The notes below the pieces were generated by a model. The model was not told where the DNA came from. It saw only the letters and a list, made by a program, of their open reading frames with translations, and did no database searches. Positions 21,099-43,439 of a stretch of DNA of 44,688 bases are shown here, piece by piece (the first letter of the stretch is position 1; each line of letters starts with the position of its first letter). The stretch covers positions 1 to 44,688 of the forward strand of contig JAJECO010000057.1 of NCBI GenBank assembly GCA_022822005.1. Direction: 5' to 3'. A program made the translations under genes and the position numbers. The DNA comes from Candidatus Poribacteria bacterium. GTDB taxonomy: Bacteria; Poribacteria; WGA-4E; PCPOR2b.

Positions 21099-22151
21099 TC
21101 ACGTCTCCAATCGGCGCTTGAGTTCCTCAATTCGCCTAACAGGTGTTGGATTCTGTTCGTACAGAATTGCGAGATAGTAACTGGTCCAATCCCCGATTGC
21201 AACCAGGGATAGCAAGCGGGTGAGTAGCGATGTTCCCTCGGAATGCACCTGCGCGATGCCGCCGGTATAGGACTGAATCAGTTCGGCCGTGATATCCATC
21301 CGACGTTGCGTCTGAGATGGCGCAGCCGGGTCGCGGAGCTGGAGGACGTGACATGATCGCGTCAACGCCGGTGGATGCTTCCACCCCTCAATCTCGTTGT
21401 GATTCATCTCAGGATACACACTATAATAGGCGAGCGATTTGCCGTTTTCATTTATCTGCCCCTTCCATCGCATCGCAACCGCTTCGAGTTCTTGAGAGGC
21501 ATAGATAACGGGCAATTTTCCATGCAGCGCGTGTGCCAGCTGCTTGGGTTGACTCTCAGGGGCGTCCGGCTGAAAATCTACCGCCATTCTCGCTAGTAGC
21601 GCAACCGCTTCCTCCAGATCGCTCTGGAGATTGAGGTCTAGCGTATACCCAAGCCGGGCAAATACCGATAAAATCGGCATAAGCAGATAACCGAGCGAAG
21701 CTCTTGGAGGTTGTCCGGCTGGGATTGCTAAACAGGGGAAACCGTGTGCGTCCGCGAACCCCTTTAGCTTTCCACCGCTGGTAACCGCCAGGATTTTCGC
21801 TCCCTGTGCAAAAGCTTTTTTAACAGACAGGAGGGTTTCTTCGGTATTGCCCGAATAGCTAACAGCGACGAAAAGTGTCTGAGACGAGACAAACGCAGGG
21901 AGGGTATATCCTCGGTGGACAATAATTGGGCATGGGAATTCAGTTCCAGCCACTGCTTTCACGAGATCGCCGCCAATCCCAGAACCGCCCATCCCGGCTA
22001 TTACAATGTTGTTGGGAATCCGCTCATCACACCCCGCCAGATCGAGGGCTTCACCAATCTCCCAGCCACGCCTACACTGCTCGGAGAAGGTAGAGAGTAG
22101 ATGAAGCATATCCTCGGAATCATGTTGTTGGATTTGAGCGAGATTCAACAT
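21099..22151 (-). CDS. Bifunctional phosphoglucose/phosphomannose isomerase (SIS domains)
   Basis: A 350-residue double-SIS protein of the bifunctional PGI/PMI family, which interconverts fructose-6-phosphate with glucose- or mannose-6-phosphate. The sugar-phosphate-binding loops GMGGSGIGGDLV (53-64) and SYSGNTEETL (98-107) are intact. EMNHNEIEGW (about 248-257) is the conserved segment carrying the catalytic Glu and His. FARLGYTLDL and PAGQPPRASLGYLLMP are further family marks. It lies 74 bp after rseP in the same direction. It is well recognised, though which activity dominates in vivo cannot be told. Confidence 0.92.
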   Translation of the reverse strand: MLNLAQIQQHDSEDMLHLLSTFSEQCRRGWEIGEALDLAGCDERIPNNIVIAGMGGSGIGGDLVKAVAGTEFPCPIIVHRGYTLPAFVSSQTLFVAVSYSGNTEETLLSVKKAFAQGAKILAVTSGGKLKGFADAHGFPCLAIPAGQPPRASLGYLLMPILSVFARLGYTLDLNLQSDLEEAVALLARMAVDFQPDAPESQPKQLAHALHGKLPVIYASQELEAVAMRWKGQINENGKSLAYYSVYPEMNHNEIEGWKHPPALTRSCHVLQLRDPAAPSQTQRRMDITAELIQSYTGGIAQVHSEGTSLLTRLLSLVAIGDWTSYYLAILYEQNPTPVRRIEELKRRLET

Positions 22152-42175: not shown

Positions 42176-42205
42176 TTGCAGAGTTCATAGCTTCTCTTGT
42201 AGAAT
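42176..42205 (+). promoter_or_regulatory. Predicted promoter of the selenoprotein gene
   Basis: TTGCAG (42176-42181) and TAGAAT (42200-42205) are 18 bases apart, matching four and five of six consensus positions. Transcription would begin near 42212, giving an untranslated leader of about 130 nt. Nothing specific was recognised in that leader. Confidence 0.5.
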
Positions 42206-42340
42206 TTAAGAAATCCGATGTCGATCCATGCGGATACGAATCCAATCCGTGCGATCCAGCAACCAAATCACCTGTCCGGAGAGAAGAACGTTGACCGAAT
42301 CGGATCTCTGGGGAATCTGACAATCTTAGGAGGATTAACA

Positions 42341-42571
42341 ATGGACCTACGAGTTGAATACTGCTCCGCTTGAAACTACCTGCCCAGAGCCGTCAGTTTG
42401 ACGGACGATATACTAAGCAAATTCAAAACAGATGTTAAAGGACTCACCCTCGTTCCCAGTGGTGGTGGATGCTTTGAAGTCTCGCTGAACGGAGAACTGA
42501 TTTACTCCAAATTGCAAACGGGAGAGTACCCAACTGCAGGACAGATTATCTCCGCAATCGAAGGCAGTTAG
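42341..42571 (+). CDS. SelW/Rdx-family selenoprotein with in-frame TGA (Sec11)
   Basis: A 76-codon gene read through an in-frame TGA at 42371-42373. It starts MDLRVEYCSAUNYLPRAVSL; the CxxU (C8, U11) replaces the CxxC of Cys-containing SelT/SelW/SelH (Rdx) proteins. After the TGA, PSGGGCFEVSLNGELIYSKL and GEYPTAGQIISAI are textbook Rdx blocks, so the frame is one intact protein and not a chance extension. Length and thioredoxin-like strand order fit the family, which has a suspected redox role. AGGAGG seven bases before the ATG is one of the best ribosome sites in the window. TGA is a normal stop in other genes here, so a general code change is not the explanation. The stop is TAG. A conventional gene finder sees only ten codons. 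Confidence 0.92.
42390..42404 (+). promoter_or_regulatory. Bacterial SECIS hairpin within the selenoprotein gene
   Basis: CCGTCA (42390-42395), loop GTT (42396-42398) and TGACGG (42399-42404) form a perfect 6-bp stem with a G at the first loop position. The loop lies 22 nt after the TGA, inside the 16-37 nt window expected of bacterial SECIS elements, which recruit SelB with Sec-tRNA. Confidence 0.8.
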
Positions 42572-42587
42572 AAACATAGATCTTTTT

Positions 42588-42626
42588 TGATGCGTGGTGA
42601 GTCAGGCAACAAATCATCACGCATCA
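42588..42626. terminator. Long hairpin after the selenoprotein gene
   Basis: TGATGCGTGGTGA (42588-42600) pairs with TCATCACGCATCA (42614-42626) with one G-T wobble and a 13-nt loop. There is no T run after it on the plus strand, so it is a weak terminator candidate or an mRNA-end stabiliser. It lies in the convergent gap with the RidA-like gene. Confidence 0.45.
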
Positions 42627-42680
42627 CATCTCCCCCTCCCACTCACACATCCACTGAAATTGGCGAGAGCATCGAAGGTA

Positions 42681-43439
42681 TTAACTGAAATCGACGTGTA
42701 GCTCTCGCGTTACCCCCCGCATATCCATTTCGTATTCTATATCCACAATCGGTGGTCGCGATGGATACCAATGGACGCCGTGTCCCTTACCTGCAATTAG
42801 CTTCGGGAGCACAATATCTTCGACAAGTCCGCTGATTGGATGTACGGTGTAGATGTTAATCCGATTTACCGCATCCCAAGCACCCCCCAACCCCAACAGA
42901 CGTTCCTCCATCACTTCGACAACATAGATAGCCTTCTCTCGTATGGCATCTTGATCGGTTTCCCCACGTCGAACAATGCCATCGGAATTCAATGCCGCTT
43001 CCAAAAGCTCACCGGCACCGGCAATAATGAAGGTCGGTTCTACCGCATTATCACAGGGAAGCACATGGGAGAACCCGTAAAGCATCGGTACTTCCGGTGG
43101 TTCGATTAGGGGGGCTACATTTGTGCGCGCCAGGGGATTGAGTTCATCCACATAAAGCCCCCAGTCCTGCAAGACTTGGCAGTACCCGTGATTGAAGTCG
43201 ATGAACCCTTCCATGGTGAAAGGTGCTGGACTTCGGAGTTGCATTGCACACAAGGCAGTCCGTCCCTGCCTCTGCGCCTTCAAATACGCGTCAACGTGCG
43301 TAAATCCCTCACGCCACGGAACAGGATTTTTTAGAGTGATGTTGACGATTTCGTAGCCGGGATCGGCGATGACACCGCAGGAATACGGATCGATACCCTT
43401 GAGAAAATGGTAATGACCCTTGGGATTATGGATAAGCAC
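42681..43439 (-). CDS. RidA/YjgF-superfamily-like protein
   Basis: A 252-residue protein. Its C-terminal half resembles the RidA (YER057c/YjgF/UK114) fold: TFIIAGAGEL, then DQDAIREKAIYVVEVMEERL, AWDAVNRINIYTVHPI and a final PPIVDIEYEMDMRG strand. The N-terminal half may be a second, divergent copy (EIVNITLKNPVPW, VDAYLKAQRQGRTALCAMQL). RidA proteins hydrolyse reactive imines; substrates of distant members are unknown. I start at the GTG at 43439, because GGAGG lies five bases before it. The frame opens at a TTG at 43451 with no ribosome site. It lies 29 bp after the epimerase gene. Confidence 0.6.
   Translation of the reverse strand: MLIHNPKGHYHFLKGIDPYSCGVIADPGYEIVNITLKNPVPWREGFTHVDAYLKAQRQGRTALCAMQLRSPAPFTMEGFIDFNHGYCQVLQDWGLYVDELNPLARTNVAPLIEPPEVPMLYGFSHVLPCDNAVEPTFIIAGAGELLEAALNSDGIVRRGETDQDAIREKAIYVVEVMEERLLGLGGAWDAVNRINIYTVHPISGLVEDIVLPKLIAGKGHGVHWYPSRPPIVDIEYEMDMRGVTRELHVDFS

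Follow-up and report, generated by a model that had tools for sequence, protein, structure and literature searches.

The window, by which we mean the whole stretch of 44,688 nucleotides analyzed here (contig C73 of a 6.0 Mb genome that is 97.8% complete), very probably encodes a selenoprotein. We read positions 42341-42571 as a bacterial SelW-like protein of the Rdx family in which UGA at codon 11 specifies selenocysteine (Sec), and we put the probability of this reading at about 0.96. The SelW family and the mechanism of Sec decoding are already known, and in marine data (Sargasso Sea and GOS surveys; PMC2398784, PMC1088965) SelW-like proteins rank with the commonest selenoproteins of prokaryotes. 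SelA and SelB have been reported in most sponge-symbiont bins, from various phyla (PMC5649159). No paper in the literature we searched combined Poribacteria with a selenoprotein, and within that literature the selW member of the poribacterial lineage appears to be undescribed.

On this reading, uncultured bacteria of a lineage related to Candidatus Poribacteria decode Sec, and this ability is under selection. Such genes would be truncated or overlooked by gene callers for which TGA is always a stop. With the mechanism and the family already known, the case matters for annotation and for the wider selenoproteome to which selW points. The coordinates of all features are collected in Table 1.

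Table 1. Features of the selW locus (positions in the window) and of the Sec-related genes elsewhere in the genome (contig:position)
Feature	Position	Strand	Details
AGGAGG ribosome-binding site	42328..42333	+	7 nt before ATG
selW-like gene (Rdx family)	42341..42571	+	76 codons, Sec codon 11, stop TAG 42569-42571
In-frame TGA read as Sec (last position of CxxU)	42371..42373	+	TGA conserved, dN << dS downstream
Bacterial SECIS hairpin	42390..42404	+	6-bp stem CCGUCA/UGACGG, GUU loop, loop G 42396; fold and conservation
tRNA-Sec	C78:285-374	-	76 bits; UCA anticodon read from sequence
selB	C78:432-2324	-	369 bits
selA	C78:2400-3758	-	602 bits
selD	C66:75157		370 bits; own in-frame TGA near N terminus, ..LAKTCG-U-AAKVS..
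Two-domain peroxiredoxin ORF	C51:191623-192618	+	in-frame TGA at FTGG-U in each domain
Further one-TGA genes, four peroxiredoxin-like and one AhpD-like	C68:43024-43407, C39:33620-34012, C51:164848-165231, C19:116613-117002, C51:147601-147780		peroxiredoxin-like GTW-U, GEF-U, GAY-U, QTY-U; AhpD-like CRY-U

The read-through protein

The gene starts at the ATG at 42341 and contains a single in-frame TGA before its TAG stop. The Cys codon of the CxxU motif lies at 42362-42364, which places C8-S-A-U11 near the N terminus of the 76-residue read-through protein (MDLRVEYCSAUNYLPRAVSLTDDILSKFKTDVKGLTLVPSGGGCFEVSLNGELIYSKLQTGEYPTAGQIISAIEGS). In profile searches this protein matched Rdx (PF10262) with 71.8 bits (cut-off 22.6, E 5.5e-20) and the NCBIfam model TIGR02174 CXXU_selWTH with 65.7 bits (cut-off 34.2). 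Because both alignments are near full-length, spanning residue 3 to residue 73-74, the sequences on the two sides of the TGA are parts of one Rdx domain. A first-pass annotation, made from the letters of the window, had proposed a complete small gene split by the TGA, an Rdx pattern on either side of it and Sec in place of the second Cys of CxxC. The start, TGA and stop lie where it put them, and the profile check that it suggested confirmed that the similarity holds downstream of the TGA.

The best NCBIfam models for the product were TIGR02174 and the equivalog NF041051 SelTWH_Campy. The score against the latter, 81.8 bits, falls narrowly under the cut-off of 88, which leaves the product within the broader subfamily and outside the equivalog. 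Its homologues among solved structures are the bacterial SelT/W/H proteins 2fa8, 3dex and 2p0g and, weakly, selenoprotein W (2npb, E 0.00099). With Cys-form Rdx proteins, such as 2fa8 (Atu0228) and the protein of one related genome (G132), it shares the family and the position of the redox motif, but they carry CxxC where it has CxxU. With animal selenoprotein W it shares the Rdx family, CxxU and a thioredoxin-like fold, although the sequence match is weak; the SECIS of the animal gene lies in the 3' UTR, whereas here it lies in the coding region beside the UGA, in bacterial style. The marine SelW-like selenoproteins (PMC1088965, PMC2398784) resemble it in family, in the CxxU motif and in a hairpin that directly follows the UGA and has a G in its loop, and differ in host lineage, which here is related to Candidatus Poribacteria.

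Conservation of the TGA and selection downstream of it

Codon 11 is TGA in 94 out of 94 homologous loci that we read, and TAA or TAG in none; these loci comprise two overlapping sets that include the window's own locus and a few genomes twice, and they do not represent 94 independent species. The loci come from many assemblies and several phyla. Because all of them conserve the TGA, a chance in-frame TGA is excluded. Among the nearest relatives, dN downstream of the TGA is 0-0.09 vs a dS of 0.33-1.24. For instance, the window genome and G003 are separated by 12 synonymous and 0 nonsynonymous changes in the codons past the TGA. The selW codons 3' of the TGA are under purifying selection.

These data bear on two other explanations. 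TGA is one base away from TGC or TGT, and errors do occur in metagenome assemblies, so a Cys codon could have mutated to TGA in a pseudogene or have been misread as TGA. However, the same TGA recurs across assemblies and phyla, dN stays well under dS past it, the SECIS hairpin is conserved and the Sec machinery is complete (both described below). On the conservation and selection data we rejected this explanation, which we regard as extremely improbable. Sec insertion competes with termination, which makes regulation by selenium plausible, and the UGA might mainly act as a true stop that ends a 10-residue leader, for example under selenium limitation. Against this, the whole sequence past the UGA belongs, together with the Cys that precedes it, to a single Rdx domain under purifying selection, and the other two stop codons never take the place of the UGA. 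Moreover, selenium regulation would supplement Sec insertion and not replace it. We consider a predominantly regulatory stop very unlikely and retain the reading of codon 11 as Sec.

In order to place the gene among its relatives, we scanned the GTDB species genomes and recovered 64 loci. The three closest (89-99% identity) are all from Candidatus Poribacteria, followed by one more Candidatus Poribacteria at 67%; Planctomycetota and other groups come after these. Among 146 genomes selected by kinship, 84 have SelW matches, and in 83 cases the match contains a single TGA. The sole match without a TGA is that of G132, which encodes CPRC and in which neither tRNA-Sec nor selB was detected. The search for Cys or Sec homologues that the first-pass annotation had recommended thus returned Sec forms in relatives and this one Cys form. 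A genome of the same genus (G005, 95% complete) has tRNA-Sec, selB and a two-TGA peroxiredoxin and gave no SelW match; selW can be absent from it through loss, or can have been missed through an assembly gap.

The probable SECIS hairpin

Published criteria for a bacterial SECIS, as compiled in a 2026 review (PMC13188914), are a loop of 3-9 nt, an upper stem of 4-16 bp, G in the first two loop positions, a location 16-37 nt from the UGA and a minimum free energy at or below -7.5 kcal/mol. With the 40-nt region 42371-42410 folded, the hairpin agrees with all of them (GUU loop with G first, 6 bp, 22 nt between the UGA and the loop, -7.8 kcal/mol). Because the fold of this region is not unusual compared with shuffles (z -1.2), the case for a SECIS rests on conservation. 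The 16-nt hairpin core, which was chosen after the fact, by itself folds at -6.7 kcal/mol with a z of -4.2.

In 78 distinct relatives the stem positions pair in 91% of cells, vs 20-48% after the partner is shifted by 1-3 bases; this conservation follows in part from the protein sequence. The loop G is invariant (78/78). Where Ser is encoded over the loop, its codon is AGY in 70 out of 70 rows, and Ser codons elsewhere in the same selW genes are TCN in 254 out of 360. The hairpin that the first-pass annotation had put forward as a SECIS, and proposed to check, thus fits the published bacterial model and is conserved in relatives. An Rfam scan of 42200-42700 returned two chance-level matches, neither of them a SECIS.

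Selenocysteine machinery of the genome

The first-pass annotation had also reasoned that the organism should have the Sec machinery, and a search of the genome bore this out. The genes selA, selB, selD and tRNA-Sec all score above their cut-offs, so the genome is positive for the Sec-decoding trait. Three of them, tRNA-Sec, selB and selA, adjoin each other, and the in-frame TGA of selD is at what we take to be the Sec/Cys site of SelD. Weaker tRNA-Sec and SelB matches elsewhere in the genome fall under the curated cut-offs, and control genomes give similar sub-threshold matches.

Across the related genomes, tRNA-Sec was found in 73 of the 83 with a UGA-containing SelW vs 25 of the 62 that lack SelW (Fisher p 1e-9, uncorrected for relatedness). 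For the 10 UGA-SelW genomes without tRNA-Sec, selB is present in eight, and the other two are only 80-81% complete. One genome (G077) has two full-scoring tRNA-Sec genes of equal score on different contigs (C41 and C76), which could reflect a duplication or a binning artefact.

Bacterial code variants in which UGA encodes Trp exist, and UGA could similarly be reassigned, or generally suppressed, in this host. However, TGA terminates 12 of the window's 37 long ORFs, and reading through it adds only a short extension in most cases, in line with the earlier remark that it acts as a stop elsewhere in the window. In the other TGA-bearing genes that we examined, the TGA is at a catalytic Cys site, and tRNA-Sec, SelA, SelB and SelD are all present. 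We rejected a UGA read as Trp because TGA stops in the window, and regard reassignment or general suppression as hardly credible next to decoding as Sec. The ORF at 21099-22151 (minus strand) has a long read-through after it, which was considered as a possible second Sec gene and rejected: two separate neighbors share the frame, one encoding a phosphoglucose isomerase-type protein and the other a uracil-DNA glycosylase.

Proposed decoding and function

From these sequence data, we infer that Sec is inserted at codon 11 in the cell. The UGA would be decoded by SelB carrying Sec-tRNA-Sec, with SelB recruited by the hairpin ~22 nt downstream. Sec itself would be formed from Ser-tRNA-Sec by SelA, with selenophosphate supplied by SelD, and the predicted product would be a thioredoxin-like protein of 76 residues whose redox center is Cys-x-x-Sec. 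This product is most likely a thiol/selenol oxidoreductase of the cytoplasm: the CxxU motif and the Rdx family suggest the redox role, and the lack of a signal peptide in the 76-residue product suggests the location.

Translation start and genomic neighborhood

The strong AGGAGG site noted in the first-pass annotation is present, and in most relatives this position is occupied by AGGAGG or a motif close to it. The plausible promoter that the annotation had also described was not recovered: our promoter scan recognized no sigma-70-type promoter upstream of selW, and promoter-like sites were only at the gene and inside it. A xylose-isomerase-like TIM barrel gene lies upstream and an unassigned ORF downstream, both on the opposite strand. 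As only the closest genomes were seen to have these genes next to selW, we rejected an operon or a conserved context, and the flanking genes are uninformative about the function of selW. We infer that selW is transcribed on its own.

Other candidate selenoproteins

Profile searches of the genome gave seven other TGA-bearing matches, six to the peroxiredoxin family (PF00578) and one to an AhpD-like family (PF02627). All seven TGAs are at the expected catalytic Cys site, a position that we take from knowledge of the families and judged also by the Cys paralogue read beside them. Two of the six PF00578 matches are the domains of a single ORF with two TGAs. Counting selW, selD and this two-TGA peroxiredoxin, the genome contains at least eight candidate selenoproteins, and the lineage is rich in such candidates as recognized by in-frame TGA.

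Of the 66 genomes that gave a match, 63 have the two-TGA peroxiredoxin ORF, and the remaining three (G006, G021 and G066) have partial matches. We think it probable that selW belongs to a large selenoproteome that has become fixed throughout the poribacterial lineage, one that includes a two-UGA fused peroxiredoxin in most genomes of the order. If this is true, a single peroxiredoxin chain would require two efficient Sec insertions. One genome (G022) has an additional copy of the peroxiredoxin ORF with one TGA.
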